Source: Myxococcales bacterium (GTDB taxonomy: Bacteria; Lernaellota; Lernaellaia; Lernaellales; Lernaellaceae). From it: a DNA stretch of 34,018 nt. The stretch covers positions 73,665-107,682 of the forward strand of contig JAAYVF010000132.1 in the NCBI GenBank assembly GCA_012517325.1, written 5' to 3'. This document shows, in pieces, positions 92-23,280 of this stretch (within the stretch, counting starts at the first letter, position 1; each line of letters starts with the position of its first letter). The notes under the pieces are model-generated. The model ran no database searches. It had not been told where the DNA came from and worked only from the letters and a program-made list of their open reading frames with translations. The position numbers and the translations under genes were made by a program.

Positions 92-1489
92 TCAGCCGCG
101 CGCCGGCGGCTGGTTTTCCTTCCCGGTTTTCTTGACCCATGGGGGCGGATTCTGGCGAAAGATCTGCGCCATGCCCATCAAGGTATCCTGCATCGTGACG
201 CGGTCGGTGATGCCTTGCCGCAGGAAACCGCGCACCGCGTCGATGACGGTGATCGCGTAATCGATCCGCGGATTGGCGCCTTTTTGGTACGCGCCGATGT
301 TGATCAAATCCTCGGCCTCGGTGTAAACGGCCAGGAGTTCGCGAATCCACGCCGCCCACTCCATCTGTTGCCGCGAAACGATGTCGCCCATCACGCGGCT
401 CGTGCTGTTGAGAATGTCGATCGCCGGAAAATGGTTGCGCGCCGCCAGTTCGCGGCTGAGAAACACGTGGCCGTCGAGGATCGACCGCGCGGCGTCGCCG
501 ATCGGGTCGTTGATGTCGTCGGCCTCGACCAGGACGGTATAGATGCCGGTAAGCGAGCCGCCCCGTTCGTCGTTGCCGATCCGCTCCAACAGGCTGGGCA
601 GCAGGGCGAACACGCTGGGCGTATACCCCTTGTTGGTGGGGGGCTCGCCGATCGCCAGGCCGATTTCCCGCCGCGCCATGGCCAAACGGGTCAGGCTGTC
701 CATCATGAACAGCACCTTGGCGCCTTGGGAGCGGAAATACTCCGCCATCGTGGTGGCCAGGTAGCCGGCGCGAAGGCGTTCGAGCGCGGTGCGATCGGAG
801 GTGGCGCAGACTACCACGCTGTGCTTCAGGCCCTCCAGGCTCAGATCGCGATCGAGGAATTCCCGCACCTCGCGGCCGCGTTCGCCGATCAGCGCGATCA
901 CGTTGACGTCGGCCTCGGTATTGCGCGCGATCATGCCCAACAGCACGCTTTTGCCCACGCCCGAACCGGCGAAGATACCGATTTTCTGCCCCTGCCCGAC
1001 CGTCAGAATCCCGTTCATCGAACGGACGCCCAGATCGAGCGATTTGGTGATGCGCTGGCGGTTGACGGGATTGAGCGGCTGGCCGTAGATCGGCAGCCGT
1101 TTGCTGCCCTGCGGCGCCGGTTTGCCGTCCATCGGCTGGCCCAACCCGTTGACGATCCGGCCCAGAAAGGCGTCGCCGACCGGCACGGTCGGACTGCGGC
1201 GCGCCTTTTCCACGCGGCTTCCCGGGCTGACGTTGTAGACGTGCTGCAGCGGCATGAGTTGCACCGACCGCTCGTCGAAACCGACGATTTCGGCGATGAT
1301 CGGCGCGGCTTCCCGGCCGTCCGGCTGCCGGGGATAAATGCGGCAGATGCCGCCGACCGGCGCGCGCGGGCCGGTGGCTTCGATCAGCAGGCCGACGATC
1401 CGTTCGACGTAGCCGTTGACGCTGATCACCTCCGCCGCGTCCACGGATTGCTGAAACGGCGACCAGTCGTATGGCGGCCGCGGAATCAT
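92..1489 (-). CDS. fliI: Flagellar type III export ATPase FliI
   Basis: This 465-residue protein is full length for FliI, the cytoplasmic hexameric ATPase that energises unfolding and release of flagellar export substrates. It is related to the F1 beta subunit. An N-terminal beta-barrel region (about 20-95) precedes a Walker A GSGVGKS at 175-181. The central segment carries the Walker B hydrophobic stretch ending MMDS, the family-typical MARREIGLAIGEPP stretch, and the DDINDPIGDAARSILDGH block. Its ATG immediately follows the fliH stop codon (TAAATG), so translation is probably coupled. It belongs to the flgC-to-fliJ operon. The identity is unambiguous. Confidence 0.97.
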   Translation of the reverse strand: MIPRPPYDWSPFQQSVDAAEVISVNGYVERIVGLLIEATGPRAPVGGICRIYPRQPDGREAAPIIAEIVGFDERSVQLMPLQHVYNVSPGSRVEKARRSPTVPVGDAFLGRIVNGLGQPMDGKPAPQGSKRLPIYGQPLNPVNRQRITKSLDLGVRSMNGILTVGQGQKIGIFAGSGVGKSVLLGMIARNTEADVNVIALIGERGREVREFLDRDLSLEGLKHSVVVCATSDRTALERLRAGYLATTMAEYFRSQGAKVLFMMDSLTRLAMARREIGLAIGEPPTNKGYTPSVFALLPSLLERIGNDERGGSLTGIYTVLVEADDINDPIGDAARSILDGHVFLSRELAARNHFPAIDILNSTSRVMGDIVSRQQMEWAAWIRELLAVYTEAEDLINIGAYQKGANPRIDYAITVIDAVRGFLRQGITDRVTMQDTLMGMAQIFRQNPPPWVKKTGKENQPPARG

Positions 1490-2098
1490 TTAAAGATCCT
1501 CGGCGCGGAAGAGTTCGTCGAGCGCGTGTTCGAGCGACGCCCCGACGAAACCCTGCGGATATTCGACCCGGCACCCGCCGGAAGGAACGCCCGGGTCGGC
1601 GACGATCGTCACCTTTTGCATCTCGCGAATCCGGGTGAATTCGTCGCCGAACCGCGAGACGGTGTCGTATTCCTGCGGATTGATCCGGATCGTCACCTCC
1701 CATTTTTTATCGACTTCGGCCATGGCGGCGCGCACGATTTTGACCAGGATTTCGTTATCCTGCGCCAAGACCGTGTGCAGCACCTTCGCCGCGATGGCGC
1801 GCACCAGCTCGACGATGTCCGGCTCCATCGCCTCGAGCGTCGTTAAAAGCAGGCGATTGAATTCCTCGACCGCGGCGACCATCCCGTCGACGTTCGGCTG
1901 GGCTTTCGCCATGCCCATTTTCACGCCGGCCTGTTCGCCCTGGGCGAACCCCTGCTCGTAGGCGACTTGCTCAATCTTGTCGGCGTTGCGCTTGGCTTCG
2001 TCGATCATCCGCTTGGCTTCGGCGCGGGCCCGTTCGAGGATGGACTCGGCCGTTTCGCGACCGCCGAAGTCCTGGAAGGTGACTTTCTTTAAGCTCAT
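1490..2098 (-). CDS. fliH: Flagellar export ATPase regulator FliH
   Basis: This 202-residue protein is the predicted FliH, the stator-like partner that holds FliI at the export gate and C-ring. It has a charged helical N-terminal half (about 15-60, rich in A/E/R/K) with a G-x-x-x-G-like stretch near 50-62. The C-terminal half ends in the FliH/YscL signature DPGVPSGGCRVEYPQGFVGA, followed by a terminal helix. It sits between fliG and fliI, 24 bp after the fliG stop and directly abutting fliI. Length, motif and position agree. FliH diverges strongly between phyla, so the call leans partly on synteny. Confidence 0.92.
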   Translation of the reverse strand: MSLKKVTFQDFGGRETAESILERARAEAKRMIDEAKRNADKIEQVAYEQGFAQGEQAGVKMGMAKAQPNVDGMVAAVEEFNRLLLTTLEAMEPDIVELVRAIAAKVLHTVLAQDNEILVKIVRAAMAEVDKKWEVTIRINPQEYDTVSRFGDEFTRIREMQKVTIVADPGVPSGGCRVEYPQGFVGASLEHALDELFRAEDL

Positions 2099-2122
2099 CG
2101 GCGTTTGGTCCTATCCCCCCTG

Positions 2123-3121
2123 CTAAACGAACATATCCTCGCCGCCGCGGCCGGTGACGACGATCTTGCCTTCGGTTTCGAGGCGGCGCGCGACGCGCAC
2201 GACCATCGATTGCGCTTTCTCCACGTCGGCGATCCGCACCGGACCGCGCGCCTCCATGTCTTCCTGGATCATCTCGGCGGCGCGGGTGGAGATGTTGCGG
2301 AAGATCTTGTTCTTGACCTCCTCGCTGGCCATCTTCAGCGCCACCGCCAGGTCGTCGTTCGAGGTTTCCTTCAAAATGGCCTGGATGCCGCGATCGTCGA
2401 CGTTGAGCAGATCCTCGAACACGAACATGTGCTGGCCGATCTGTTCGGCCAGGTCGGGATCTTCCTCTTCCAGCTTGCGCATGATCTCGTTCGCCGCGCT
2501 CTTTTTCATCTGGTTGAGGATTTCCGCCGCCGGCTTGACGCCGCCCGAACTCTCGGCGACGTCGATCGAGAAGGTGGACAGCTCGCGCCCCAGCGCGTCG
2601 ACCACTTCCTCCAAGGCGCCGGGGAGCACCGAGTCCATGCGGGCGACGCGGCGCAGCACCTCGAATTGCATGTCCTCGGGCAGGTTGGCGACGATTTCCG
2701 CGGTGGTCGTGGACGGCAACTGCGAAAGGATGAAGGCGATGGTCTGCGGGTGTTCCTTTTTGATCAGGTTGAAAATCGCCTTCGGGTCGTAGCGGCGGAT
2801 CTGCTCCAACTGCTGCTCGATGACCAGGCGCTGCAAAATCGTCTGGGCCTTGGCGGGTTCGAGGGCTTGGTGCACGACGTTTTCGATGAACTCCTTGCCC
2901 GACTTGCTGATGTAGCCTTCCGACGCCAGCCGCTCGCTGAACTCGTCGAGCACCTTCTGCATGTCGTCCGGCGTGATGTCGCCCAGCTTGGGCACCGCCG
3001 AAATGACCAGGCGGATTTCGTCCTCCGCCAACCGTTTGAAAACGTCGGCCGCGATCTCCTCGCCCAGGAACATGAGCAAGGCCGCCGCCTTTTCCACGCC
3101 GGTCAGCTTTCGGTCAAGCAT
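2123..3121 (-). CDS. fliG: Flagellar motor switch protein FliG
   Basis: This 332-residue protein has the normal FliG length. FliG forms the torque-generating upper part of the C-ring, binding FliF through its N-terminus, FliM through the middle domain and MotA through the C-terminus. It starts MLDRKLTGVEKAAALLMFLG and carries the middle-domain EHPQTIAFILSQL block (about 130-143). The C-terminal charged torque helix region includes DDRGIQAILKE and the RGPVRIADVEKAQ segment. The start ATG overlaps the fliF stop region by 8 bp (3114-3121), so translation is coupled. Identification is secure from motif content and neighbours. Confidence 0.97.
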   Translation of the reverse strand: MLDRKLTGVEKAAALLMFLGEEIAADVFKRLAEDEIRLVISAVPKLGDITPDDMQKVLDEFSERLASEGYISKSGKEFIENVVHQALEPAKAQTILQRLVIEQQLEQIRRYDPKAIFNLIKKEHPQTIAFILSQLPSTTTAEIVANLPEDMQFEVLRRVARMDSVLPGALEEVVDALGRELSTFSIDVAESSGGVKPAAEILNQMKKSAANEIMRKLEEEDPDLAEQIGQHMFVFEDLLNVDDRGIQAILKETSNDDLAVALKMASEEVKNKIFRNISTRAAEMIQEDMEARGPVRIADVEKAQSMVVRVARRLETEGKIVVTGRGGEDMFV

Positions 3122-4787
3122 TGCGTTCCCCCTCCTTGATCCAGCGACGAATCATCAGGGTCACCGCCTCGCTGTCGCGGGAGGCCGTTTCGAGCAGATC
3201 GGCTTTCTGCCGGTTCAGCCGGCCCATGCGCTCGGCCATGGTGATTTCCTTCGGTCCGGCTTCCTCGGCCGGCACGGCTTCCTCGGCGGCGACGCCCGGC
3301 CCCAGTCGGCCGGCCAGCCGGGCTTCGATTTCGCCGACGGTGGCGCCGGCCAGCAATTCGGCGGGCATGCCCAACTGCGATTCGAGCGACGGTTCGGTGG
3401 TCAGCCAGCGCAGGAGCGGCCGGACGATGAAGAGCAGGAACAACACCACGCCGAGCACCGCCAGGCCGTAATTGACGAAGCGGATGATGTAATCCATTTT
3501 TTCATAGGGCGATTCCAACGCGCCGGCTTCCTCGGTGACGAAGGGAATGTTGGCCACCTCGATCTGGTCGCCGCGCTGCTCGTTGTAGCCGACGACCTTC
3601 TTGACGATCTCGGTGAACGTCGCCATTTCCTCCTCGGAGCGCGGCACGAATTCCATTTTCTTCTTGCCTTCCCCCTCGACTTCCTTGTAGGTGCCGTCGA
3701 TCAGCACCGCGACCGACAGCTTCTTGATCGCGCCGCCCGCCTGGCTGATCGTCGAGGTCGTGCGGCTGATTTCGTAGTTGACGGTTTCCTGCTTTTTATT
3801 CGATTTGGACTGGTTCTGCGCGCCTTCGGCGTAGTTGGTTTCGGGCACGTTCGACTCGGCGCCCGGGAACGAGGAGGTGTTGGTTTCGCTGGCGGTGTTG
3901 TCGGCGACCACGGTCTGCTGGCTGCGCACGACCTGTTCGTCGGGGTTGTAGCGTTCCTCGACTTTCTGCACGTTCTCGCGGTCGAGCACCACGTGCACCC
4001 GCGCCGCCACCTTTTCCGGCCCGACGCTCCGGGCCAGCAGCGTTTCGATGTTCTGCTCGGTCTGCTTTTCCAGCTTGCGGGTCTTGTCTTCCAGGTCGCC
4101 CGCGCCGCCCATCGCGTCGTCCTTGGGCTTGGACAAGACGTGGCCCTTCTGGTCGATGATGGTCACGTTGTTGCTGTCCAGGCCCTCGACGCTGGAGGAA
4201 ACGAGAAAGACGATGCCGCTGATCTGCTCGTCGGTGAGCTTCGCGTTGGCGGCCAGCGTCAGCACGACCGAGGCCGTCGCCTGCTTTTTATCCTCGATGA
4301 ACAAGGTTTCTTCCGGCAGCGCCAGGTGAACGCGGCAGGCCTCGACGGGGCTGAGTTCCTTGATCGTGCGCGCCAATTCGCCCTGCAAGGCGCGCAGCTT
4401 GGCGATCTTCAATTGGGCGTCGGTCAGACCCAGGCCCTTGCGGTCGAACAGTTCGTAGCCGACGACGCCGCCGGAGGGCAGGCCGGCGTTGGCCAGCGAC
4501 ATTTTCGCCTCGTAATAGTTTTTATCGGGGACGCTGATCGAGGTGCCGTCGCGGTCCAACTTGTAGGGAATCCGGTTTTCCTTCAGGTGACTGACCACGG
4601 CATTGGCGTCTTCCACGGCCAGGTCGGCGTACAGGGTCTTGTACTCGGCGCGGCCGGCCCACCAGACCAGGAAGGAAAAAATCGCGGTCATCAGCAGGAA
4701 AATCAGGATGAAGCTGATTTTTTTGCCGGTGGACAGTTGTGTCCAGAGATTCTTCAACTGGCCGGGAATCTCGCGGAGAGAAGCCAT
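3114..4787 (-). CDS. fliF: Flagellar MS-ring protein FliF
   Basis: This 557-residue protein is full length for FliF, which builds the membrane-embedded MS ring on which the basal body assembles. A first membrane helix lies at about 24-45 and a second at about 433-457. Between them is the large periplasmic region with the YscJ/FliF-type ring-building domain (SVPDKNYYEAKMSLANAGLP, VEACRVHLALPE). The C-terminal cytoplasmic tail ends in the helical FliG-binding segment (MIRRWIKEGERN). It is preceded by fliE with a 44-bp gap and overlaps fliG by 8 bp. The identity is secure. Confidence 0.97.
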   Translation of the reverse strand: MASLREIPGQLKNLWTQLSTGKKISFILIFLLMTAIFSFLVWWAGRAEYKTLYADLAVEDANAVVSHLKENRIPYKLDRDGTSISVPDKNYYEAKMSLANAGLPSGGVVGYELFDRKGLGLTDAQLKIAKLRALQGELARTIKELSPVEACRVHLALPEETLFIEDKKQATASVVLTLAANAKLTDEQISGIVFLVSSSVEGLDSNNVTIIDQKGHVLSKPKDDAMGGAGDLEDKTRKLEKQTEQNIETLLARSVGPEKVAARVHVVLDRENVQKVEERYNPDEQVVRSQQTVVADNTASETNTSSFPGAESNVPETNYAEGAQNQSKSNKKQETVNYEISRTTSTISQAGGAIKKLSVAVLIDGTYKEVEGEGKKKMEFVPRSEEEMATFTEIVKKVVGYNEQRGDQIEVANIPFVTEEAGALESPYEKMDYIIRFVNYGLAVLGVVLFLLFIVRPLLRWLTTEPSLESQLGMPAELLAGATVGEIEARLAGRLGPGVAAEEAVPAEEAGPKEITMAERMGRLNRQKADLLETASRDSEAVTLMIRRWIKEGERNA

Positions 4788-4831
4788 CTGTGCAACCCTT
4801 TAAATGTTAGACGGACGACGTTTTCGGTCGC

Positions 4832-5149
4832 TCAGACCGACAGGCGCATCACCTCCCGATACGCCTCAATCAATTTATCGCGAATCGCCATTAACGTCCG
4901 GAAGCTGATGTCGGCCTTTTGCAGGGCCAGCATCGCGTCCTGCAGGTTGTCGGCGCGTCCGGTGGCCAATTCGATGATCTGTCGATCGGCCTCTTTTTCC
5001 AGACCGCTGACCTCGGCGATGGCCTTCTTCAACACGTCGTTGAAGTTGACACCCTCGCCTTCGCCCGCCTTGAGGTCGGTTTTCGGGGTCTGCTGCAGTT
5101 GCGGACCGCCGAGCGCTTTGAGTTTGGCGTCCAGGGTGATGTCTTTCAT
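4832..5149 (-). CDS. fliE: Flagellar hook-basal body protein FliE
   Basis: This 105-residue protein matches FliE, the adaptor between the MS ring and the proximal rod, secreted by the flagellar export system. The second half shows the family pattern VNFNDVLKKAIAEVSGLEKE, then LATGRADNLQDAMLALQKAD and a C-terminal helix resembling FlgC and rod proteins (LIEAYREVMRL). No Sec signal peptide is present, as expected. A GGGAG ribosome-binding site precedes the ATG at 5149, 15 bp after the flgC stop. The flgC-fliE-fliF order is canonical. Confidence 0.95.
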   Translation of the reverse strand: MKDITLDAKLKALGGPQLQQTPKTDLKAGEGEGVNFNDVLKKAIAEVSGLEKEADRQIIELATGRADNLQDAMLALQKADISFRTLMAIRDKLIEAYREVMRLSV

Positions 5150-5164
5150 CGATTCATCTCCCTA

Positions 5165-5596
5165 TCAACTCTTGCCCAGATCCAAGGCTTGCTTGTCGAG
5201 GTTCCGGGCGGTTTGCAAGGACGCCAGATTCGCCTCGTAGCTCCGGGCCGCGTTGAGCATGTCGGTCATCTCCTCCACGAGGTTGATGTTCGGCATGGAC
5301 ACGTAGCCCTGCTCGTCGGCGTCGGGATGGCCGGGGTCGTAAACCCACAGCGGCTCCCGATCGGCTCCTTTCACCTGCTCGACCCGAACGGCATACAGTT
5401 TGCGTTGCTGGTCCAATTCGACCTCGAACTCGTTCCCGACGGGAACCGCGGTCAGAATCGGCACCTGGCGCTGGTACGGTTTGCCGTTCGGACCATGGGT
5501 AGTCTGGATGTTAGCCAGGTTCGCGCTGATGACCTGCATGCGGATTCGCTGCGCCTGCAAGCCACTTGCCGCGATGGCCGTTACATTCACCCCCAT
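5165..5596 (-). CDS. flgC: Proximal rod protein FlgC
   Basis: The 143-residue protein starts MGVNVTAIAASGLQAQRIRM and contains the rod-family SANLANIQTTHGPNGKPYQR block. The C-terminal helix NLVEEMTDMLNAARSYEAN is shared by rod and hook proteins. I chose the ATG at 5596 because AAAAGGAGAAGG lies just upstream. The longer possible frame (to 5683) would start inside or before a sigma-54 promoter and adds a hydrophobic extension foreign to FlgC. FlgC forms part of the proximal rod and is exported through the flagellar T3SS. No flgB precedes it, which is unusual because flgB normally leads flgC-fliE. Confidence 0.94.
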   Translation of the reverse strand: MGVNVTAIAASGLQAQRIRMQVISANLANIQTTHGPNGKPYQRQVPILTAVPVGNEFEVELDQQRKLYAVRVEQVKGADREPLWVYDPGHPDADEQGYVSMPNINLVEEMTDMLNAARSYEANLASLQTARNLDKQALDLGKS

Positions 5597-5767
5597 GTCC
5601 TTCTCCTTTTGGGTGCACAGAAAATACGTCCGTCTGGTACCCAGAAGTAGCAAACCGGATGCCAACCCCATCGACCCGAACAAAATGGCGATATCTCTTT
5701 GAATATACTGTATATTTCTAAAACCACCCGCTCCCCGCGGAGCCGAATGGCCGGAAAATATTTCCGC
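5597..5767 (-). promoter_or_regulatory. Intergenic region between the FlrC-like gene and flgC
   Basis: These 171 bp hold the sigma-54 promoter at 5649-5665 and the flgC ribosome-binding site. They also hold a short GC-rich hairpin (GCTCC/GGAGC, about 5729-5742) just after the regulator gene, without a good T-run. An AT-rich block lies around 5697-5717. No flgB-like frame is visible here. Confidence 0.5.
5649..5665 (-). promoter_or_regulatory. Sigma-54 promoter of the flgC-fliE-fliFGHIJ operon
   Basis: TTGGCATCCGGTTTGCT on the minus strand has the invariant GG and GC separated by exactly 10 bp, and it matches most of the consensus TGGCAC-N5-TTGCW. The GC lies about 54 nt upstream of the flgC ATG, which gives a leader of about 40 nt. 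The next gene upstream encodes an FlrC/FleR-like sigma-54 activator, the expected regulator of such a class III promoter. Confidence 0.82.
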
Positions 5768-13049: not shown

Positions 13050-13077
13050 TTGACTCTCGGCAAGAATGTAGTAATAT
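13050..13077 (+). promoter_or_regulatory. Sigma-70-type promoter of the HesB-like selenoprotein gene
   Basis: TTGACT at 13050-13055 is followed after 16 bp by TAATAT (13072-13077) in a very AT-rich TATATATAAT stretch, so more than one -10 register is possible. The gene starts about 50 nt downstream. Confidence 0.6.
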
Positions 13078-13128
13078 ATATAATACGATACATAAGCGGC
13101 CGGTAAGCCGCCGTGAAAAGGGGCATGA

Positions 13129-13455
13129 ATGAACACCGATCTGGTTTTGTTGACCGATTCCGCCCGCGCCGAATTGAAAAAAATCGCCACGGCGCCCGAG
13201 CATCACGACAAGGTCGTCCGCCTGATTTTCGCCGGCTGGGGCTGAGGCGGGCCCAAACTGGGCCTGGCTCTGGACGAGCCGAACGACAAGGAAATCCTCT
13301 ACTTCGAAGAAGGCCTGACCATCGTCGGCGACGGCCGCGTCCGGCAGCAAATCAACATGAGCGGCAGCGTCCGCATCGATCATCTGTCGGATCTGCATCG
13401 CGGCACGGGCTTTCTGATTTCCATGGGCGACGATTCCGGTTCCTGCGATTGTTGA
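13129..13455 (+). CDS. HesB/IscA-like selenoprotein (in-frame TGA at codon 39)
   Basis: A 108-codon frame starts at ATG 13129, preceded by AAGGGG. It is interrupted only by TGA at 13243-13245 and ends at TGA 13453-13455. Read as selenocysteine (U), the site is GWGUGGPKLGLALDEP. This is the HesB/IscA-family signature with U in place of the conserved Cys, a substitution I recall from described HesB-like selenoproteins. The region after the TGA keeps the family pattern (FEEGLTIVGDG, then IDHLSDLHRGTGFLISM) and ends SCDC. A SECIS-like hairpin follows the TGA. IscA-type proteins bind or carry Fe-S; the Sec form's role is unknown. The alternative is a nonsense pseudogene, which the intact downstream frame disfavours. 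Confidence 0.88.
13266..13280 (+). promoter_or_regulatory. Candidate bacterial SECIS element
   Basis: GGCTC-TGGAC-GAGCC forms a perfect 5-bp stem with a 5-nt loop containing GG, starting 20 nt after the TGA. The apical loop begins 25 nt after the TGA. This meets the bacterial SECIS rules as I recall them: a G in the first two loop bases and a UGA-to-loop distance of 16-37 nt. A second overlapping hairpin (13250-13264, stem GGCCCA/TGGGCC, loop AAC) is more stable but lies too close and lacks loop guanines. Confidence 0.65.
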
Positions 13456-13562
13456 TCGTCCGCCTCCCGCAATTTCCACTATAGGCACATCGCCACTTTT
13501 CTATTAAGCTACGGCTCGCCGAACAGGTTTATTCGCATTGGTCCGGCGAAAGGATCTCCCCG

Positions 13563-14936
13563 ATGAAACAGAAGCTTTTCCTCTATTGCCTGCTGGCGCT
13601 GCTCGGCGGCCTGTTCTCACTCGCCGCCGGTTGCGGCAACGGCGATGACGACGACAACGACGACGAGGCGACGGACGACGACACCGGCGGCGACGACGAC
13701 GATGACGACGACAACGATGATTCCGGAGACGATGATGACGATAACGACGACAACGACGACTCCGGGGACGACGACGATGACGACGATGACGACGACAACG
13801 ACGACGACACCACCCCCGCCTGCGATTACGACGCCTACAATCCGCTGATCGACGCGGGCAAGGCCTTCCTGGCGGAACGCGACGCCAACTCGGCCTACGA
13901 TCAGTTTTTCGACGCGCAACTGCTCTGCCCGGGCGAGCCCGCGGGCCAGGTCGGCATTCTGTTGTCCGACACCCAGTGGACGCTAGGCTGGTATCAGACG
14001 CTGTACGAATCGCTGGTCGGCTTCGATCCGTCGCCGAAGGAAAAAAGTTTCGCGACCAATTTCCAACACATGATCCGCGATCATTTTCTGCCGGTGAACG
14101 AGGAGATGATGGCCCTGATCGACGACCTGTCGGCCAACCATCCCGAGGTGGAGTTCGAAATCGAAACCCTGCCCCTGTGGACGACGGACGACGTCGTCAC
14201 CCTGGACCTCGGCGGCCAATGGGACGCGGCGGATTTGCTGAACCTGCGCGCCCTGACTCAGTTGTCGAGCGGGTTGGAGCGCTTTTTGCTGGCCTTCGAT
14301 CTGACCTTCAATTACAACACCTACGCGTTCTGGGCGTTTCCCGCGTCGGGCGCGCCGATGGATGAACTCATCCACGCGATCACCGGGCTGATCATCGCCC
14401 TGATCGAAGACCCCGATTACCCGAATCTCCTGCAATTCCTCGACGGCGGCGAAAGCGACCTGTCGCAATCCGGTGTGCAATTCGGCTTCGGTTGCCTGGA
14501 CGCCGGCGACGCCTTCGCGGCCATCCGCGCGGAAACCGACGATCAGACCGACGACGTCTTCGGCTACTACGACGAAAACGCCAACGGCCAATGGGACGAA
14601 GGGGAAAATTACACGCTGCCGATGCTCGGCCCGTTGGACGACGAGACCGAGTTCGTGCTCGAGGAATTTCTGGCGCTGCTGGCCGATCTGGGCCCCGCCC
14701 TGCTCGACTCCGGGCCGGAAGATCTGCGGCCGGCCCTGCCGGATTGGCTGCCGTTGTCGGACCTGAACGTGATTCTGGATTTGTTCGGCGCCGGCTTCGA
14801 ACTGCCGGGCATCCCGATTCCGGTCGGCCGCTGGTTCTACAACCCCGCCGCGGACGGCATCCGTTCGCTGGTCTACACCGTGGCGCAATATCTCTACGAT
14901 GCCACCGCGCCCGATCGGCTGGAGGTGCAGCCATGA
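13563..14936 (+). CDS. Asp-rich-linker lipoprotein of unknown function
   Basis: This 457-residue protein has a type II signal peptide with lipobox LAAGC (C24), then an Asp/Asn/Ser/Gly linker (about 28-82) of nearly uninterrupted acidic residues. A mostly helical globular domain follows. It contains a calcium-site-like DENANGQWDEGE segment (EF-hand- or thrombospondin-repeat-like), which may bind Ca2+. The residue after the lipidated Cys is Gly, not Asp, so an outer-membrane destination is plausible. It is the first gene of a four-gene operon and overlaps the next gene by 4 bp (ATGA). I do not recognise the domain and assign no enzymatic role. Confidence 0.75.
   Translation: MKQKLFLYCLLALLGGLFSLAAGCGNGDDDDNDDEATDDDTGGDDDDDDDNDDSGDDDDDNDDNDDSGDDDDDDDDDDNDDDTTPACDYDAYNPLIDAGKAFLAERDANSAYDQFFDAQLLCPGEPAGQVGILLSDTQWTLGWYQTLYESLVGFDPSPKEKSFATNFQHMIRDHFLPVNEEMMALIDDLSANHPEVEFEIETLPLWTTDDVVTLDLGGQWDAADLLNLRALTQLSSGLERFLLAFDLTFNYNTYAFWAFPASGAPMDELIHAITGLIIALIEDPDYPNLLQFLDGGESDLSQSGVQFGFGCLDAGDAFAAIRAETDDQTDDVFGYYDENANGQWDEGENYTLPMLGPLDDETEFVLEEFLALLADLGPALLDSGPEDLRPALPDWLPLSDLNVILDLFGAGFELPGIPIPVGRWFYNPAADGIRSLVYTVAQYLYDATAPDRLEVQP
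13644..13808 (+). repeat. Asp/Asn codon tandem repeat (lipoprotein linker)
   Basis: A run of GAC/GAT with interspersed AAC codons encodes the acidic linker. Similar runs occur at 16368-16496, 17635-17730, 19548-19745, 20541-20678 and 21544-21684, and in reverse at about 25604-25705. They produce long spurious Ser-, Thr- and Val-rich frames in other phases. Confidence 0.9.
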
Positions 14937-16273
14937 AACGCCATGCCTGTCTGATTTTCCTGTCGCTTGTGTTGCTCGTATTCGTCGGCTGCAACACCGC
15001 TTCGACTTCCGGCGGTTCGACCGCGTTCAGCGATCAGGACGGCGTCGCCGCTGGTGACGACGACGGTCCGGGAGCGCCGGCCGGCGCGACCGCCGGCGAC
15101 CGGGACGACGACTCGAACGACGGCGGCCACGGCGATCGCGACTGCGAACCCGTCGCCCCGCCCGTCTGGCCGGAACCCGACATCGAGGACCCGGCGGTCG
15201 TTTCCTTCGACGAGGATCTGTTCTTCACCATCGACGGGCAGCGCTTCTTCCCGCTCGGCTTTTACGGCGTGCCGCAGGACCCCGATTCGCTCGCCCAATA
15301 CAAGAGCGAAGGCTTCAACCTGGCGCTGACGGGTCCGGGTTGCTGCGGCGGCGGCACGGGACCACAGGTGGACTTCCTGCGCACGGCGCAGGAACAGGGC
15401 GTGTTCATCGTCACGCATCCCTGGTCCGATCCGAACGACGTGCTCAATCGGCCGGAAGAGGAACTGGCGGCGGAACTGGCCGACCGCACGGCGATCGGCA
15501 GCCTGTTCGGCTGGTACACGTTCGACGAGCCGGCGCTCTGGCGGCCGTCGAAAGAGCTGACGTCGCGGATGCACGAAGTGCTGACGACCTATTCGCCGAC
15601 CAATCCCGACGGCCTCGTCGAGCAGACGATGGACGACTTCAACCTGTACGAGGACGACTGCTCGTTCTTCATGATCGATCCCTACCCAGTGCCGAAAATG
15701 TTCATCACCAACGTCAAGGATGGGATGAAGGAAGCGATCGAGGCGACCGAGGGCGAAAAGCCGATCGTCGGCGTCACGCAGGCGTTCAGTTGGGATTGGA
15801 TTTACGGCAACTACGACCAGCCGTTCCGGCCCACCGGGCTCGAGGTCCGCAACATGACCTGGCAGTTCATCATCATGGGCGCGCGCGGCCTGATCCCCTT
15901 CATTTACGCCACCGACTACTCCATTCACGCCGTCCCGGAAATCTGGGAAGCGTACCTGGACGTGATCGCGGAAATCAACGAACTGATGAGCGTCGTGCTG
16001 GCCGACGACGCGGCGATCGACCTGGCCGCCGAAACGACCTTCCCGACCACCTTCGATTACCTGGTCAAGCAAAACGAAACCGCCACCTGGGTGTTCTCGG
16101 TTTCGACGAACGACCACTCGCTTTACGTCACCTTCGATTTGAACGCGATCGGCGACGATCTGTGCGTGGTCGATTACACCACCGGCGAAATCTTCACCCC
16201 GGGCGGCGACGGCAAGGTGACCGTCCCTTACGCGCGGTTGCAGGTGCGTTTGCTGGAAGTGCGTGAAAATTAG
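14933..16273 (+). CDS. Lipoprotein with glycosidase-like TIM-barrel domain
   Basis: This 446-residue protein starts MKRHACLIFLSLVLLVFVGC, with the lipobox Cys at 20, then a mixed Gly/Ala/Asp linker to about 70. The rest resembles secreted (beta/alpha)8 glycoside hydrolases. It has an N-terminal strand FFPLGFYGVPQDP, a 'GFNLAL' strand, GWYTFDEPALW, whose Glu is a candidate acid/base, and a later strand with FMIDPYPVP. A small C-terminal beta domain follows. The ATG at 14933 overlaps the previous stop, and longer frames run into the upstream gene. It sits before a PNGase F-like gene, consistent with glycan processing. The exact GH family and substrate are not assigned. Confidence 0.72.
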   Translation: MKRHACLIFLSLVLLVFVGCNTASTSGGSTAFSDQDGVAAGDDDGPGAPAGATAGDRDDDSNDGGHGDRDCEPVAPPVWPEPDIEDPAVVSFDEDLFFTIDGQRFFPLGFYGVPQDPDSLAQYKSEGFNLALTGPGCCGGGTGPQVDFLRTAQEQGVFIVTHPWSDPNDVLNRPEEELAAELADRTAIGSLFGWYTFDEPALWRPSKELTSRMHEVLTTYSPTNPDGLVEQTMDDFNLYEDDCSFFMIDPYPVPKMFITNVKDGMKEAIEATEGEKPIVGVTQAFSWDWIYGNYDQPFRPTGLEVRNMTWQFIIMGARGLIPFIYATDYSIHAVPEIWEAYLDVIAEINELMSVVLADDAAIDLAAETTFPTTFDYLVKQNETATWVFSVSTNDHSLYVTFDLNAIGDDLCVVDYTTGEIFTPGGDGKVTVPYARLQVRLLEVREN

Positions 16274-16301
16274 CCGGCCTCGCCGGCCGAGGGAGAACTC
16301 C

Positions 16302-17558
16302 ATGAACCAGCGGCTTCTTTTTATCGTCCTGGCTTTGCTTTTGCTCTGCCTGCCCGCCTGTTCCACGAACGACGACGACGACGATTCCGCCGACGGCGCG
16401 GCCGATGACGACGACGATTCCGGCGGCGAACCGGACGACGACAACGACAGCGCGGACGACGACGACGCGTCGCCCGCCGACGATGACGACGACGACACCA
16501 CGCCGGGCGAATGGCCGGGCGATCCCTGGTACGGCTGCACCGACGAGGACATCCCGGCGGACGCGACGGTCGTGACGGCCTTCGATCTGGCCGATCAATA
16601 CTACGACGGCGCGGACGACCGGCGGACCATCGAGGCGGCGGTGGAATTTCCCGCGGCCGCCGATTGGTCGCAGGTGACGCTGCGCCTAGAGTTGTCGTGC
16701 CCGGCCGACGGCGATTGCGACAATTGGGACCGGTTCGCCAATCTGTCGTTGGTGGAAAACGCCGGCGCCAAGGACGAGACGGCCTTCGAGCTTTGGCGGT
16801 ATATCACGCCGTATAACGTCGGCATGTGCATGCTGGGCGACATCACGCCTTTCGCGGCCAAACTGACGGGCACGAAAACCATCCGCTCGTTCGTCGACAC
16901 CTGGGTCGGTCCGAACTCGTCGGGCAACGGCCACGGCTGGCGCGTCACGGCCAAGTTCATCTTTCATCCGGCCGTCAAATCAGAAGTGCCGGATCAAATC
17001 GTCAACGTCTGGCCCTATCATTCGATCGAGGTCGGCAACCCCGACAACCCGATCGACACCCAGATCGGCGAACAGAATCTCGCGCTGCCGGCGACGCTCT
17101 CGCGGGCCGAATTGCGGGTGCTGGTGACCGGCCACGGCCAGGGCAACCGCGACAATTGCGCGGAATTCTGCCACCTGCAGCAGGTCATCCAGGTCAACGG
17201 CCAGTCGTTTCCCTTCGATCCCTGGCGCAGCGATTGCGGCTTCAATCCGCTCGGTCCCGAGCAAAGCGGCACCTGGAAGTACCAGCGCAACGGCTGGTGC
17301 CCCGGCGCGGTGGTGATTCCGCAGGTCATCGACGTGCTCGCGGCCCTCACCGCGGGAACCGACAACACCTTCGCCTATCAGGTCTGGAACGAGGAAAGCG
17401 CGCTGTACGAAAACACCTGCCGGCCCGGCGCGGGCGACGAGAACAACGTTTGCACCGAATGCGCCTTCAGCAGCGATCCGGGCAATTGCGATTACGACGG
17501 CGGCATGCACACCATGCCGGTCGATAACCTGACGGTGCAGCTTCTGCTTTGGGAGTAG
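16302..17558 (+). CDS. PNGase F-like peptide-N-glycosidase lipoprotein
   Basis: This 418-residue lipoprotein (lipobox LPAC, C20) has an acidic linker to about 65 and then two domains that match the N- and C-terminal halves of PNGase F. The enzyme cleaves N-glycans from asparagine in glycoproteins. Recognisable blocks are CDNWDRFANLSLV (139-151), ITPYNVG (168-174), VTGHGQGNRDNCAEFC (275-290, candidate catalytic E288) and GTWKYQRNGWCPG. The Asp in the CDNWDR block and Glu in the CAEFC block correspond to catalytic positions in PNGase F as I recall them. The start at 16302 has GGGAG upstream. It is the third gene of the operon, 28 bp after the previous stop. Confidence 0.87.
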   Translation: MNQRLLFIVLALLLLCLPACSTNDDDDDSADGAADDDDDSGGEPDDDNDSADDDDASPADDDDDDTTPGEWPGDPWYGCTDEDIPADATVVTAFDLADQYYDGADDRRTIEAAVEFPAAADWSQVTLRLELSCPADGDCDNWDRFANLSLVENAGAKDETAFELWRYITPYNVGMCMLGDITPFAAKLTGTKTIRSFVDTWVGPNSSGNGHGWRVTAKFIFHPAVKSEVPDQIVNVWPYHSIEVGNPDNPIDTQIGEQNLALPATLSRAELRVLVTGHGQGNRDNCAEFCHLQQVIQVNGQSFPFDPWRSDCGFNPLGPEQSGTWKYQRNGWCPGAVVIPQVIDVLAALTAGTDNTFAYQVWNEESALYENTCRPGAGDENNVCTECAFSSDPGNCDYDGGMHTMPVDNLTVQLLLWE

Positions 17559-17565
17559 CGCAGCC

Positions 17566-19305
17566 ATGACGAAAGTACATTGGTCGATCTTCGCACTGCT
17601 GCTTTTCTTGTCCGGCCTCGCCGCCTGCGGCGCGAATGACGACGATGACCCCGGATCAGGTCCGGGGCAGGCTCAAGATGATGACGATGATGATTCAACC
17701 GCCGACGATGCCGGCGACGATGACGACGACGTGACGCCGCCGGCCATCGATTGGGGAAGCTGCCCCGACTACATCCAACTCGACGCCACCATGGACGCCG
17801 AATGCGCGACCGCGCGGTTGCCGCTTGATTACGAAAAGAAAAACAGCAAGACCATTCCCGTTTTCCTGTATCGCGTTTCCGGTTCGGCCGCGACGAAACG
17901 GGGGCAAGTCTGGTTCTTACAGGGCGGCCCCGGCGGCAGCGGCGCCGATTTCGCCCAGTTGTTCCAGGTGTACGCCGCGGTTTACCCCGACCTGGATTTC
18001 TATTCGCTCGATCACCGCGGTGTCGGCAACTCGGCGCGCCTCACCTGCCCGCAGGAAGAAGTCGAGCCGTTCGATTACCAGGGCTGCGCGGCCTCGCTGC
18101 GCGACCAATGGGGCGACGACCTGATGGCCTTCAGCACGACGAATGCCGCTTACGACGTCAGCGTGCTGATCGAGGCCGTCCGCGAGTCAGGCGTGCCGGT
18201 TTACGTCTACGGCGGATCCTACGGCACCTATTGGTTGCAACGACTGCTGCAACTTTCGCCGCAACGGATCGACGGCGCGATTCTGGATTCCATCTGCTCG
18301 CCGGGTTTCACCAAACTGGACGAATACGACCCGCACTTCAACGAAATCGGCCACCAGATCATGGACACCTGCGCCACGGACGCGACCTGCGCCGAAAAAC
18401 TGGGAACGATCGATGCGGATCCCTGGACCGCGCTCGGCAAGGTGTACGAAAAAATCGACGCCGGCGACCTCTGCCTCGCACTCGGCGATGTCGACCGGAC
18501 CTTGCTGCGCGAAGGCCTGGGATTGTTGGAAACCGACTACTTTCTGCGCGTGGTGATCCCCTCGGTGATTTACCGGCTCAACCGTTGCGCCCCGAAAGAC
18601 GTGCTGGCCTTGAACAATCTGCTGACGATTCTGGAGGGGAAAAAGAAAATCATCACCGATCCCGACAAGCTGGCCAGCGATTACACGCTGGGTACCAGCA
18701 TCATTCTGGCGGAGTTGTACGGCGACACGACCTATGCCGAGGCGCTGAACTTCGTCAATCAGGCTTATTTTTCGGTCGATGCCGGCCTCCTCATCGGCGA
18801 AATTTTCGATTGGGGGCAGTGGCCGATCTATCCGGACGACGGCTATATGAACCGCTGGGCCGACACCGACGTGCCGCTGCTGATGCTGAACGGCGATTTC
18901 GATCCCCAGACCACCCTGTCGATGGCGACGCCGGCCGGAGAACACTTTACCGGATCGGCGCAAACCTTCGTCACGGTCCCCTATTCGCCGCACGGCGTCA
19001 TCACGGGTTCGCCGACTCCGACCGCCATCGCGGCCTACTTTGAAAACGACCTCGAAACGTTTCTCACTTCAACCTGCGGCGCGCAAATGATTTTCGATTT
19101 CCTGGCCGACCCGACCGGGCCGGTGGATACCGAATGTCTGGCCGCGATTCCGCCGTTGGAGTTCAGCGGCGATTCGCTGGTCAATCAATACATGAGCCTG
19201 GCGCTGTACGGCACCACCGACATGTGGGAAGGAATTCCGGCCGGCAAGCGCACGGCGGTTCCCCATTTTCTTCCCAATCCCTTCGCGCCTCGCCGGTGGC
19301 GCTGA
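17566..19305 (+). CDS. TAP/SlpE-like alpha/beta hydrolase lipoprotein
   Basis: This 579-residue lipoprotein (lipobox LAAC, C21) has an acidic linker to about 55. The catalytic domain matches the tripeptidyl-aminopeptidase/proline-iminopeptidase-like hydrolases. It has an oxyanion region LQGGPGGSG (118-126), SLDHRGVGNS, nucleophile elbow YGGSYGT with Ser218, a C-terminal Asp in LNGDFDPQTT and a His in YSPHG. Cys pairs suggest disulfides. It probably cleaves short peptides or peptide esters outside the inner membrane. It follows the PNGase F-like gene by 7 bp. The linker contains an in-frame palindrome (17649-17667) not seen in its relatives. Confidence 0.85.
   Translation: MTKVHWSIFALLLFLSGLAACGANDDDDPGSGPGQAQDDDDDDSTADDAGDDDDDVTPPAIDWGSCPDYIQLDATMDAECATARLPLDYEKKNSKTIPVFLYRVSGSAATKRGQVWFLQGGPGGSGADFAQLFQVYAAVYPDLDFYSLDHRGVGNSARLTCPQEEVEPFDYQGCAASLRDQWGDDLMAFSTTNAAYDVSVLIEAVRESGVPVYVYGGSYGTYWLQRLLQLSPQRIDGAILDSICSPGFTKLDEYDPHFNEIGHQIMDTCATDATCAEKLGTIDADPWTALGKVYEKIDAGDLCLALGDVDRTLLREGLGLLETDYFLRVVIPSVIYRLNRCAPKDVLALNNLLTILEGKKKIITDPDKLASDYTLGTSIILAELYGDTTYAEALNFVNQAYFSVDAGLLIGEIFDWGQWPIYPDDGYMNRWADTDVPLLMLNGDFDPQTTLSMATPAGEHFTGSAQTFVTVPYSPHGVITGSPTPTAIAAYFENDLETFLTSTCGAQMIFDFLADPTGPVDTECLAAIPPLEFSGDSLVNQYMSLALYGTTDMWEGIPAGKRTAVPHFLPNPFAPRRWR
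17649..17667. repeat. Palindrome inserted in a coding linker (REP-like)
   Basis: CCCCGGA-TCAGG-TCCGGGG is a perfect 7-bp inverted repeat with a 5-bp loop. It resembles dispersed intergenic palindromes common in GC-rich proteobacteria. It encodes part of the PGSGPGQ interruption within the Asp-rich linker of the alpha/beta hydrolase. Codon choice around it (GAT-rich) differs from the GAC-rich linkers of the neighbours. Confidence 0.55.
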
Positions 19306-19385
19306 AATCGCTCAACCCGGGCCGTTTTTGAACAACCGCGCGGTGATGGCGGTTGCCGAAAAATGAAGCCGACACAAATATTCGA

Positions 19386-19413
19386 TTGTTTTCTCCCTCA
19401 AAAGTAGTACAAA
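19386..19413 (+). promoter_or_regulatory. Weak candidate promoter of the first NGGFETG lipoprotein gene
   Basis: TTGTTT and TACAAA are spaced by 16 bp in an AT-rich intergenic stretch, about 63 nt before the start codon. This is a modest match only. The 19306-19475 region holds no gene. A 7-bp inverted repeat CAACCGC/GCGGTTG (about 19333-19356) without a T-run may be a weak terminator of the upstream operon. Confidence 0.35.
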
Positions 19414-19448
19414 TATTCCCAATCCTACAGAAAACAACCCGGGTTCAT

Positions 19449-19474
19449 GTACAAAACGAGGAGGAGGTTTGTAC
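19449..19474 (+). promoter_or_regulatory. Inverted repeat displaying the ribosome-binding site in its loop
   Basis: GTACAAA and TTTGTAC form a perfect 7-bp inverted repeat around the 12-nt loop ACGAGGAGGAGG. The loop is the Shine-Dalgarno region of the next gene, and the repeat ends 1 nt before its ATG. It could be an RNA hairpin presenting or gating the RBS, or a DNA operator. Confidence 0.55.
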
Positions 19475-19475
19475 G

Positions 19476-20294
19476 ATGAAATCATTTAAATTTTTCTTTT
19501 TCCTGTTTCTGTTGACCGGCATTCTCATCGCCTTCAGTTGCTCGGGCGACGACGATGACGACGACAACGACGATAACAACGACGATAACGACGACAACGG
19601 CGATGACGATGTGGCCGACGACGACGCGGCGGACGACGATTCCGGCGACGACGACAACGATTCGAGCGATGACGACGATTCCAGCGACGACGACAATGAC
19701 TCGGGCGACGACGACGACGATTCGGGCGATGACGACGACGACAACACTCCCGGCACCGCCGACTTGATCGAAAACGGCGGATTTGAAACCGGTGACGCCA
19801 CTGGTTGGACCGGCGAATGGCCCTACGATGAATTGGTTCACTCCGAGGATCTCGGCGACGACGATACGTCTCCCGACACGACCTGGTACATTCTTCCCCA
19901 CACCGGGTCGTACGCGGTCTGGTTCGGCCAGACCCATTCGCAGCACACCGCCTGGTTGGGACAGACGGTAACGGTGCCCAACGACATCACGACGGCCGAA
20001 GTCCGCGCCTGGCACTATTTGTACAAATTCGGCTCCTGCTCTTTCACCTTGACCCTCAAGCTGGTGAATCCGAACAATCCCAACAATGTCCTGCTCGACC
20101 TCGGCTCGTGGACGCAGGCGGATGCCTCGTTCATCGCCAACTACAAGGAATTCATGCACCAACTGTCCACCGCCGAACTGTCGAGCCTGCAGGGCGAAGA
20201 GGTCATGTTGCGGTACGAATATACGGGCCAGGGCGCGTTGATCTCCGGCTGCTATGTGTACCTGGACGACGTCAGTTTCGACGCAACCTGGTAA
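19476..20294 (+). CDS. Asp-rich-linker lipoprotein with NGGFETG beta-sandwich domain (copy 1)
   Basis: This 272-residue lipoprotein (MKSFKF..., lipobox FSC, C22) has the longest acidic linker here (about 25-90). A single domain follows that starts DLIENGGFETGDATGWTGEW and ends YVYLDDVSFDATW. This N-GGFE-x-G...W and terminal LDDVSF pattern is typical of secreted carbohydrate-binding-type jelly-roll modules, so glycan or surface binding is plausible but unproven. The ATG at 19476 has a strong GAGGAGG site; earlier in-frame codons lack a signal peptide. It is a tandem paralogue of the next gene. Confidence 0.75.
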   Translation: MKSFKFFFFLFLLTGILIAFSCSGDDDDDDNDDNNDDNDDNGDDDVADDDAADDDSGDDDNDSSDDDDSSDDDNDSGDDDDDSGDDDDDNTPGTADLIENGGFETGDATGWTGEWPYDELVHSEDLGDDDTSPDTTWYILPHTGSYAVWFGQTHSQHTAWLGQTVTVPNDITTAEVRAWHYLYKFGSCSFTLTLKLVNPNNPNNVLLDLGSWTQADASFIANYKEFMHQLSTAELSSLQGEEVMLRYEYTGQGALISGCYVYLDDVSFDATW

Positions 20295-20324
20295 AACGGA
20301 TTTCGTCAACGATATTGACTGGTC

Positions 20325-20360
20325 GGGCGCGGTGGAACATTCGCCGCGCCCTTCTGATTT
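20325..20360 (+). terminator. Probable terminator after copy 1
   Basis: GGGCGCGG and CCGCGCCC form an 8-bp GC stem with an 11-nt loop, followed by the T-rich TTCTGATTT. It lies 30 bp after the stop codon and before the promoter of copy 2. Confidence 0.55.
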
Positions 20361-20385
20361 CAGGCGGTTCCCGACCGGTTTTGCT

Positions 20386-20414
20386 TTGACCTTTCCCTAA
20401 AAAAGTCAGATAAT
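20386..20414 (+). promoter_or_regulatory. Promoter of NGGFETG lipoprotein copy 2
   Basis: TTGACC, a 17-bp spacer and GATAAT. The same hexamers and spacing recur at 21394-21422 before the next lipoprotein gene, with similar flanking bases, which supports the assignment. Confidence 0.72.
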
Positions 20415-20459
20415 TTTGCCATCTCAAGCAAAATCCGAATTTTAGAGAGGAGTGGGCAG

Positions 20460-21230
20460 ATGAATCCAAGGTATTTGTGGATACTAACGATTTTTGCGCT
20501 CTTCTTCGCCGCGATCGCGCTCAATTGCTCCAGTTCGGGCGATGACGACGACAATGACGATAACGACGACAACAACGACGGCGCCGACGACGACACCTCG
20601 GACGACGATGCCGGGACCGACGACGACGACAACGACGATAACGACAATGACACCGGCGATGACGACGACAATGACGACGCCTCGCCCGGCTCCGGCGATC
20701 TGATCCAGAACGGCGGATTCGAGACCGGCGACACCACCAACTGGGACGGCGAATGGCCCTACGACCAGTTGGTCTATTCCGAAAACCCCGACGACGACAC
20801 CTCGCCCGACGACGACGAATGGTACGTGACGCCGCACAGCGGCGCTTACGCGGCCTGGTTCGGCCAGACCTTCCAGCAGCATACCGCCTGGTTGGGACAA
20901 ACGGTGTCGATTCCCGAATCGCTGTCCGCCGGAACGATCGACTTCTGGTACTACATGTCCAAGTTCGGTTCCTGCACGTTTACCTTCACCGCCCGGGTCG
21001 TCGAGGCGGCCAATCCCGACAACACGTTGATCGACTTGGGCACCTGGACCGAGGCGGACGCCGCGTTCCTCGCCAAATACAAGGAACTGAACCGCGTGCT
21101 GACCACCGATGAAATGTCGGCGCTGCAAGGCGAGAATGCCGTCCTGCGCTTCGATTACACGGGATCGGGCGCCTTGATTTCGGCCTGCTATATTTACCTG
21201 GACGACGTCAGCCTCCAGGCGACCTGGTAA
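20460..21230 (+). CDS. Asp-rich-linker lipoprotein with NGGFETG beta-sandwich domain (copy 2)
   Basis: This 256-residue lipoprotein starts MNPRYLWILTIFALFF with lipidated C23 and an acidic linker (about 28-73). Its ectodomain (LIQNGGFETGDTTNWDGEWPY to YIYLDDVSLQATW) is clearly homologous to that of the preceding gene, sharing WFGQT, QHTAWLGQTV, KFGSC and the terminal LDDVS-x-x-ATW. Function is unknown; the fold is probably a jelly roll as found in carbohydrate-binding modules. GAGGAG precedes the ATG. The signal peptide matches the next gene (MNPRYLW) rather than its own paralogue, which suggests module exchange. Confidence 0.76.
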   Translation: MNPRYLWILTIFALFFAAIALNCSSSGDDDDNDDNDDNNDGADDDTSDDDAGTDDDDNDDNDNDTGDDDDNDDASPGSGDLIQNGGFETGDTTNWDGEWPYDQLVYSENPDDDTSPDDDEWYVTPHSGAYAAWFGQTFQQHTAWLGQTVSIPESLSAGTIDFWYYMSKFGSCTFTFTARVVEAANPDNTLIDLGTWTEADAAFLAKYKELNRVLTTDEMSALQGENAVLRFDYTGSGALISACYIYLDDVSLQATW

Positions 21231-21250
21231 TAAACAAACCGGCACCGACG

Positions 21251-21290
21251 AACGGGGAGAACACCGCATGGTTTTCTCCCCGTTTTCTTT
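21251..21290 (+). terminator. Intrinsic terminator after copy 2
   Basis: AACGGGGAGAA and TTCTCCCCGTT form a perfect 11-bp stem with a 12-nt loop, followed by TTCTTTC. It lies about 20 bp after the stop codon. Confidence 0.75.
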
Positions 21291-21393
21291 CTCGTCAAGA
21301 CTTTTTATTCCTGCGAAGACCGATTCATCGAAATCAAAGCCCAGTTGCCGGAGCCGGATTGCGCCTGACGTTCGGTCGCGCGCCTGCCGCCTT

Positions 21394-21422
21394 TTGACCT
21401 TTACCGGAAAATTTCCGATAAT
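21394..21422 (+). promoter_or_regulatory. Promoter of the carboxypeptidase-regulatory-like lipoprotein gene
   Basis: TTGACC, a 17-bp spacer and GATAAT, matching the promoter at 20386-20414. The bases after -35 (TTT-x-CC) and the A-rich spacer are also shared, suggesting common ancestry or regulation. Confidence 0.72.
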
Positions 21423-21465
21423 CCCCTCGTCTCACCTACCAACGGAAGAAAAGAGGAGTGCGCCG

Positions 21466-23280
21466 ATGAATCCAAGATATTTGTGGATGCTGGCTGTTTT
21501 TGCGCTCATTTTCCCGCTGCTTGCGCTGGGTTGCGCTAGTTCGGACGACGATGACGACGACAGCAACAACCTGCCCCCTTATGGGGACGACGACGATAAC
21601 GACGATACCGCCGATGACGACGACGACAACGACGACAACGATGACAACGACGACAACGACGACAACGACGACAACGACGACGACACCACGCCGCCCGACA
21701 ACGATACCGAGTACGATCCGCTGTCCTGCGCCCTGCCCGATCCGGAAGGCATCGGCAACGATTTGACGATTGGCGGCGGCCCGGTGACCACGACGATCAC
21801 CGTGTACGTTTACGACGACAAGACCTGCGCACCGCTCGAAAACGCCTCGGTTATTTACGGCGGCGCCCACCTGACGGATGCCGACGGCAAGGTGGTCCTG
21901 ACGGTGGCCAAGGATCAGGCGCTGGTCAGCGCGTACAAAACCGGCTATCAGTCCTGGTCCTATCAGGCCGATGCCGCGGTGATGTATTTCCGCCTGCGGC
22001 CCTCGACCTACGGTTACACCTACAACAACACCACCCAGGGCGTTTATACGCTGGACGACACGCCGCTCGCCCTGGACAACCCGACGATCAACAACCTCGG
22101 CGAGCTGATCGGCCTGATCAACAACCCGCTCTACATCGGCATCACCCTGCCGAATTTCTCGCGCCAGACCTGGTTGCAGACCGATCTCTCCGGTGTGCTG
22201 ACCGAGCAGACCTACCAGATCGACATCGATCTGCCCGACGCCGGGTATTACCTGCTTCTCTATCACAACGTGTTCCTGCCGGAACTGGACATCAACAACG
22301 TCATGGGCATCACGGTCGCCTGCCCGGATCATCCCTATTACCAGATGCCGATTCGCTCCGACGCGACCGAGCTGCCGTACGCCGGGATCGTCGGCGAACT
22401 CGACCTGGGCGCGATTCTCGACCTGCAGACCCTGACCGACCTGCTGACCGCGATCATCAACGGCGAGGACATCACCACCGTGCTGTTGACGCTCGTCGGG
22501 CCGCTGCTGCAGGACGGCTTCACCCTGCCCTACGTCGGCGCCGAACCCGCCTGGGATACGACCGGCGCGCCGGACCTGGCCATGGTGGAAGTCGGGGCCG
22601 AGAAAGAATCGTTCGACGTCACGATCACCAATCCGGACGCCGGGGCGGATTATCTCGGCGCATTGATTGCCGAGATTCCCAATCGGACGCTCATTCCGAT
22701 GGATCTCAACCTCGCCGACGCCGGCTCGCTGACGCTGGATTACGCCGACATCACCGATGCCGATTACGCCCTGACCATGGTAAAGACCAACTTCCTGGAT
22801 TCCACCTTCGAATCCAGCGATTTCTCCCTCGCGCTTAAATACGGTTGGTTCGCCGACACCTGGGCCGACGGCGCGACCTTTGACGATGCCGATTTCCTGC
22901 CCTACTTCGACAGCGCGAATACCAGCTACACCCCCGGCACGCACACCGTGGCTTGGGAAATGGAAGGCGGCAAGGCGACGCCCGACCTGTACTACGTCTA
23001 CATCCTGCCGGCCTGCATCGATTCCGGTTGTCCTACGATCATGGCCGTGGTGCCCGGCACCGCCACCGGCTTTACGGTGCCGTCCGAAATTTCCTACACC
23101 GGTTCGGCGGAAGACATCGTGGTTGTCGCGGCGATCGACCTGCCCGACGGCGTGACCATCGACGAGTACAACCCGACCAAGTTCCTCGGCTACGACAACT
23201 CGGCCATCTCGATCTGGATGAACTACAACCTGGTCGACCTGCTGATGTACCTCTTCGATCAAAACGTCGTGAAAAAATAA
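21466..23280 (+). CDS. Asp-rich-linker lipoprotein with carboxypeptidase-regulatory-like domain
   Basis: This 604-residue lipoprotein starts MNPRYLWMLAVFALIFPLLALGC (C23) and has an acidic linker with a nearly perfect Asp-Asp-Asn repeat (about 54-73). Residues about 100-170 form a beta-sandwich like carboxypeptidase regulatory or Cna-B-type domains (TITVYVYDDKTCAPLENASV, then LTDADGKVVLTV). The rest is beta-rich with no motif that I recognise. I chose ATG 21466 because AGAGGAG and the promoter lie just upstream; the longer frame has no signal peptide. A surface-exposed structural or binding role is plausible. Confidence 0.74.
   Translation: MNPRYLWMLAVFALIFPLLALGCASSDDDDDDSNNLPPYGDDDDNDDTADDDDDNDDNDDNDDNDDNDDNDDDTTPPDNDTEYDPLSCALPDPEGIGNDLTIGGGPVTTTITVYVYDDKTCAPLENASVIYGGAHLTDADGKVVLTVAKDQALVSAYKTGYQSWSYQADAAVMYFRLRPSTYGYTYNNTTQGVYTLDDTPLALDNPTINNLGELIGLINNPLYIGITLPNFSRQTWLQTDLSGVLTEQTYQIDIDLPDAGYYLLLYHNVFLPELDINNVMGITVACPDHPYYQMPIRSDATELPYAGIVGELDLGAILDLQTLTDLLTAIINGEDITTVLLTLVGPLLQDGFTLPYVGAEPAWDTTGAPDLAMVEVGAEKESFDVTITNPDAGADYLGALIAEIPNRTLIPMDLNLADAGSLTLDYADITDADYALTMVKTNFLDSTFESSDFSLALKYGWFADTWADGATFDDADFLPYFDSANTSYTPGTHTVAWEMEGGKATPDLYYVYILPACIDSGCPTIMAVVPGTATGFTVPSEISYTGSAEDIVVVAAIDLPDGVTIDEYNPTKFLGYDNSAISIWMNYNLVDLLMYLFDQNVVKK
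21625..21687 (+). repeat. (GACGACAAC)n 9-bp tandem repeat
   Basis: About six near-identical units of the Asp-Asp-Asn codons, the most regular acidic repeat in the window. Slippage would change linker length in frame. Confidence 0.8.

Follow-up and report, generated by a model that had tools for sequence, protein, structure and literature searches.

The window, by which we mean the whole 34,018-nucleotide stretch of DNA analysed here, very probably contains a gene for a HesB-like selenoprotein, at 13129-13455 on the forward strand. We put the probability of this reading at about 95%, a figure that covers the identity of the protein and not its function. We infer, with very strong comparative support, that the internal TGA of this gene is decoded as selenocysteine (Sec).

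HesB-like proteins were one of 25 bacterial selenoprotein families in 2006, with 11 members (PMC1794560), and a review from 2026 places them under TIGR01911 with the motif UxGP (PMC13188914). In Methanococcus maripaludis, mutagenesis together with 75Se labelling identified the HesB-like member as a selenoprotein, its function being unclear (PMC11097638).

In the mechanism that we propose, UGA codon 39 would sit in the ribosomal A site while SelB with Sec-tRNA binds a hairpin in the mRNA, the UGGAC loop of which lies 25 nt downstream of the UGA. Sec would then be put in at codon 39 instead of termination. The product is predicted to have the IscA/HesB fold, in which Sec39 would stand in for the first ligand cysteine of three, the remaining two being Cys106 and Cys108. 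The features are as follows.

13050..13084, + strand: candidate sigma-70-like promoter, TTGACT...TAATAT or TCGGCA...TATAAT; weak, from a consensus scan
13116..13123, + strand: ribosome-binding site AAAAGGGG, purine-rich and 5 nt upstream of the ATG, as read from the sequence
13129..13455, + strand: predicted gene of a HesB-like selenoprotein, 108 aa and a TGA stop, from its translation, profile matches, tree and IscA fold
13243..13245, + strand: in-frame TGA for U39 (predicted selenocysteine), in the alignment column of the invariant HesB/IscA Cys; a TGA in 43 homologues, the window gene and the same-family genome included
13265..13281, + strand: predicted bacterial SECIS hairpin U-GGCUC-[UGGAC]-GAGCC-G, with its loop starting 25 nt past the TGA, register kept in 41 of 43 Sec homologues
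13444..13452, + strand: C106-D-C108 at the C-terminus, corresponding to ligand cysteines two and three of A-type proteins, in columns that are at least 90% conserved

The reading frame and its internal TGA

The frame has a single internal TGA (13243-13245, codon 39) before its terminal TGA at 13453-13455. Translation of 13129-13455 (+) gives a protein that runs from MNTDL to GSCDC, with GWG-U-GGPKLGLALDEPNDK around the Sec and C-D-C at the C-terminus. Another in-frame TGA (13126-13128) lies immediately 5′ of the ATG, therefore 13129 is the only plausible start. The original prediction, which was made from the letters alone, had described one continuous frame through the TGA at the position of the HesB Cys, with family-like sequence up to a natural stop. 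The translation and an invariant alignment column agree with the former, and conservation that extends through the CxC tail bears out the latter. The Sec39 column is invariant across an alignment of 45 proteins, and UGGP fits the UxGP motif.

The original prediction also held that standard ORF callers would split or miss the gene. A program-made list of open reading frames holds no plain ORF in this frame, and a Pfam search gave no match for the HesB-like protein or for two overlapping spurious ORFs. The gene had also been credited with its own promoter and ribosome-binding site. The purine-rich ribosome-binding site is there, but the claim of an AT-rich promoter is weak, with three sigma-70-like sites in the region (two of them upstream of the HesB gene) against 0.5 expected in shuffled sequence.

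The internal TGA is widely shared. The comparison with Cys and Sec homologues that had been proposed covered 55 homologues, 43 with TGA and 12 with TGC or TGT at the Sec codon. In the genome G002, which belongs to the same family, the homologue is 42% identical and also carries a TGA at this codon. TGA is likewise present in homologues from several other lineages, from Desulfovibrionaceae and other Desulfobacterota, and from Bacillota plasmids. In the phylum of another genome, G029 (Desulfovibrionaceae-like by its homologues), 71 of 148 genomes have a match to the family, and most of the above-cut-off matches in those 148 carry exactly one in-frame TGA. An assembly error is very unlikely, because the TGA also occurs in the same-family genome and in homologues of several lineages.

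The predicted SECIS hairpin and selenocysteine decoding

A hairpin with GG in its loop had been placed at 13266-13280, 25 nt from the TGA, and these coordinates are exact: the core GGCUC-UGGAC-GAGCC fills this interval, and an extra U-G pair extends it to 13265-13281. On its own this hairpin is only mildly unusual: when the peptide is recoded synonymously, 4.5-5.8% of the versions do as well.

We regard a family-wide comparison as decisive for the predicted bacterial SECIS. Five or more stem pairs around a loop of 5 nt, placed exactly 25 nt past the TGA, are found in 41 of the 43 Sec homologues (2.6 expected) and in none of the 12 Cys homologues (0.2 expected), where the expected counts come from GC3-matched synonymous codon sampling and the sequences are related, so that neither count is one of independent events. 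The loops are UGGAU, UGGAC or, once, UGGAG, and the stem pairs vary on both sides (GGCUC/GAGCC, GGUUC/GAACC, GUCUC/GAGAC, GGUCC/GGACC). A good example is a Pseudodesulfovibrio genome (L040), whose Sec and Cys copies both encode LALDEPNDKD, yet the pairing codons occur in the Sec copy only. The hairpin of a copy on a Cytobacillus plasmid reads CUGGCUC-UGGAU-GAGCCAG. Two Sec homologues, L023 and L026, have no register-matched hairpin; in L023, from the same-family genome, a six-pair stem is broken by one A-C mismatch.

In isolated folding, a competing hairpin at about 13244-13270 is more stable than the SECIS hairpin. We considered this lowest-energy hairpin as the SECIS and rejected it, as its distance from the TGA is shorter than that of the conserved hairpin and it is out of the conserved register. 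With the UGA in the A site this part of the mRNA would probably be largely inside the ribosome, and the competing hairpin melted. An Rfam search of 13100-13460 was empty even with E values up to 10 allowed.

The genome is a draft assembly of 5.25 Mb in 134 contigs, and is 97% complete. Its Sec trait is complete, with at least one further client. The presence of selA, selB, selC and selD had been named as a check on the original prediction, with the absence of selA/selB/selC as a refutation, and all four are present: a tRNA-Sec (72.7 bits, above the Rfam cut-off, anticodon TCA), and selA (593 bits), selB (339 bits) and selD (339 bits), each above its cut-off. The selD gene (L018:1501-2424) is a selenoprotein gene too, with an in-frame TGA and the context HGSG-U-ACKL.

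The window does come from one contig of a draft assembly, but the notion of an ordinary Cys HesB gene with a misread TGC or TGT, or of a decayed copy, is barely tenable when the TGA is common to the same-family genome and 41 further homologues, the protein is conserved to its natural stop, CxC tail included, the SECIS is present with a conserved register and the genome decodes Sec; on these comparisons sequencing error and pseudogene appear effectively excluded. Some points do weigh against the selenoprotein identity, namely family scores below the cut-offs, the absence of a Pfam match, the competing 5′ hairpin and the mismatch in L023. Furthermore, selA was not found in the genome of the same-family relative, which is 84% complete.

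Placement among HesB and IscA proteins

Among NCBIfam profiles the protein ranks NF038090 first (E 5.2e-12, 46 bits, curated cut-off 85), then TIGR01911 (E 1.9e-8, 34.8 bits, curated cut-off 66.35), with TIGR00049 (31 bits, cut-off 58.8) and ErpA weaker. Each of these three scores is under its cut-off, and those of NF038090 and TIGR01911 are annotation thresholds rather than biological features. Other TGA-bearing members among the 148 genomes also score below 85 bits, and below-cut-off scores may be a reason why annotation would miss this divergent member.

A maximum-likelihood tree sets the Sec group apart from canonical Cys IscA/ErpA (98/89), and in it the window protein pairs with that of G002 (96/92); the tree rests on few columns, and deep branching within the Sec clade is poorly supported. 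It requires six or more Sec/Cys changes. The Cys rows within the Sec clade look like Sec-to-Cys reversions, and several of these rows belong to tandem duplicates. In several genomes Sec and Cys HesB genes stand as tandem pairs, at L025, L049, L073, L032/L038 and L040, where the Cys copies have no SECIS hairpin. It is possible that such pairs form a selenium-responsive isoform switch.

An AlphaFold2 model built from the alignment (pLDDT 88) predicts the fold of IscA/SufA, and its best Foldseek matches in the PDB are 2apn (HI1723), IscA (1x0g and 1r94) and SufA (2d2a). HI1723, the best structural match, shares the HesB/IscA fold with 25% identity over the aligned region; unlike the window protein it is not a selenoprotein, and its Cys is, as far as known, of the ordinary IscA type. 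Canonical IscA/SufA/ErpA (TIGR00049; PDB 1x0g, 1r94, 2d2a) have the same fold and the same three ligand positions. That said, theirs are Cys, with a GGCSG motif and a CGCG tail, whereas the window protein has a predicted Sec and falls in a separate clade (98/89). Of the A-type pattern C-x(n)-C-x-C the three positions are kept, as U39, C106 and C108, but the first of them is a predicted Sec and not a Cys.

With the TIGR01911 (HesB_rel_seleno) and NF038090 (IscA_HesB_Se) family the protein shares Sec where HesB proteins conserve a Cys, the UxGP-LALDEP motif, a SECIS hairpin just 3′ of the TGA, the IscA fold and C-terminal Cys residues. It differs in being divergent, under both curated cut-offs, and in coming from a sparsely sampled lineage. 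Most Desulfobacterota members have a Cys/Gly-rich tail, in contrast to the short CDC tail seen here.

Candidate functions and genomic context

The gene is solitary, with a PilZ-domain protein on the opposite strand on one side and an Asp-rich lipoprotein-like gene on the other. The latter side continues as a run of consecutive lipoprotein-like genes (13563-23280, +) in which long Asp/Asn-rich (DDDDDN) linkers follow the signal Cys; two of these genes (19353-20294 and 20460-21230) look like tandem paralogues. Elsewhere in the window, 92-5683 (-) holds what by eye are flagellar/type III export-like genes (FliI, FliH, FliG, FliF, FliE and FlgC-like). We dropped an operon-based approach to function: apart from a few ferredoxin and methyltransferase domains, no partner recurs in the neighbourhoods of 20 Sec homologues, and the neighbours of the HesB gene in the same-family relative are unrelated to those in the window.

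Two plasmids carry related loci. In Cytobacillus oceanisediminis (NZ_CP062791.1, L086:3001-3276) a HesB-like gene without a listed feature has an in-frame TGA (GFG-U-GQPKVGLALDEP) and the same SECIS-like hairpin; it is part of an arsenic operon, flanked by arsA/trxB/phosphatase on one side and arsR on the other. An Alicyclobacillus plasmid (L087:2501-2782) has a Cys copy, annotated 'adhesin', that adjoins arsC/arsI/trxB. These copies suggest a metalloid or thioredoxin link.

Is the protein a carrier of Fe-S clusters? No canonical IscA/SufA/ErpA was detected in its genome or in the sister genomes G001 and G003. An A-type carrier (IscA/ErpA-like) with Sec as the first cluster ligand is a tentative possibility, for which the IscA fold with U39, C106 and C108 argues, as does the fact that this is the only HesB/IscA-domain protein detected in a 97%-complete genome. 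However, in the two sister genomes (96-98% complete) not a single A-type protein was detected, therefore the A-type function is not obligatory in the phylum; three other genomes of the phylum have a canonical A-type carrier. Also against a carrier, a disruption mutant exists in Methanococcus maripaludis, and its nitrogen fixation is not impaired (unpublished observation quoted in PMC11097638).

A selenoprotein that is not a carrier is a possibility we hold with similar reserve. Here the HesB scaffold would serve selenol/thiol redox or metal(loid) binding, e.g. in arsenic or metal stress, in keeping with most selenoproteins being redox proteins (PMC13188914), with the Bacillota plasmid relatives in arsenic operons (the Cytobacillus TGA copy and the Alicyclobacillus Cys copy) and with a copy in G082 close to a thioredoxin gene. 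Such a partner is not recurrent across 20 other neighbourhoods, however, all three A-type ligand positions are retained, and the neighbours in the window are the PilZ-domain protein and the Asp-rich lipoprotein.

We consider a redox or metalloid role, for which the copies in arsenic operons of Bacillota plasmids are a lead, and a carrier role about equally likely. Being the only detected HesB-domain protein allows, without showing, a role as sole A-type carrier. It is improbable that the Sec HesB is the sole A-type carrier of its genome, with Fe-S maturation through a selenium ligand and dependent on selenium supply. The HesB-like protein would most likely be a stand-alone accessory protein with a Sec/Cys/Cys site for a metal or Fe-S cluster, or for selenol redox, and most likely not an indispensable Fe-S assembly factor, both tentative readings.

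In summary, the window gene is a divergent addition to an established selenoprotein family, from a sparsely sampled phylum, and adds a selenoprotein that is probably under-annotated. The fixed register and loop of the SECIS (25 nt, UGGAU/C) across phyla are a usable signature for finding members missed by profile cut-offs. Finally, a genome with one detected HesB-domain protein is a cleaner setting for the question of what this family does.
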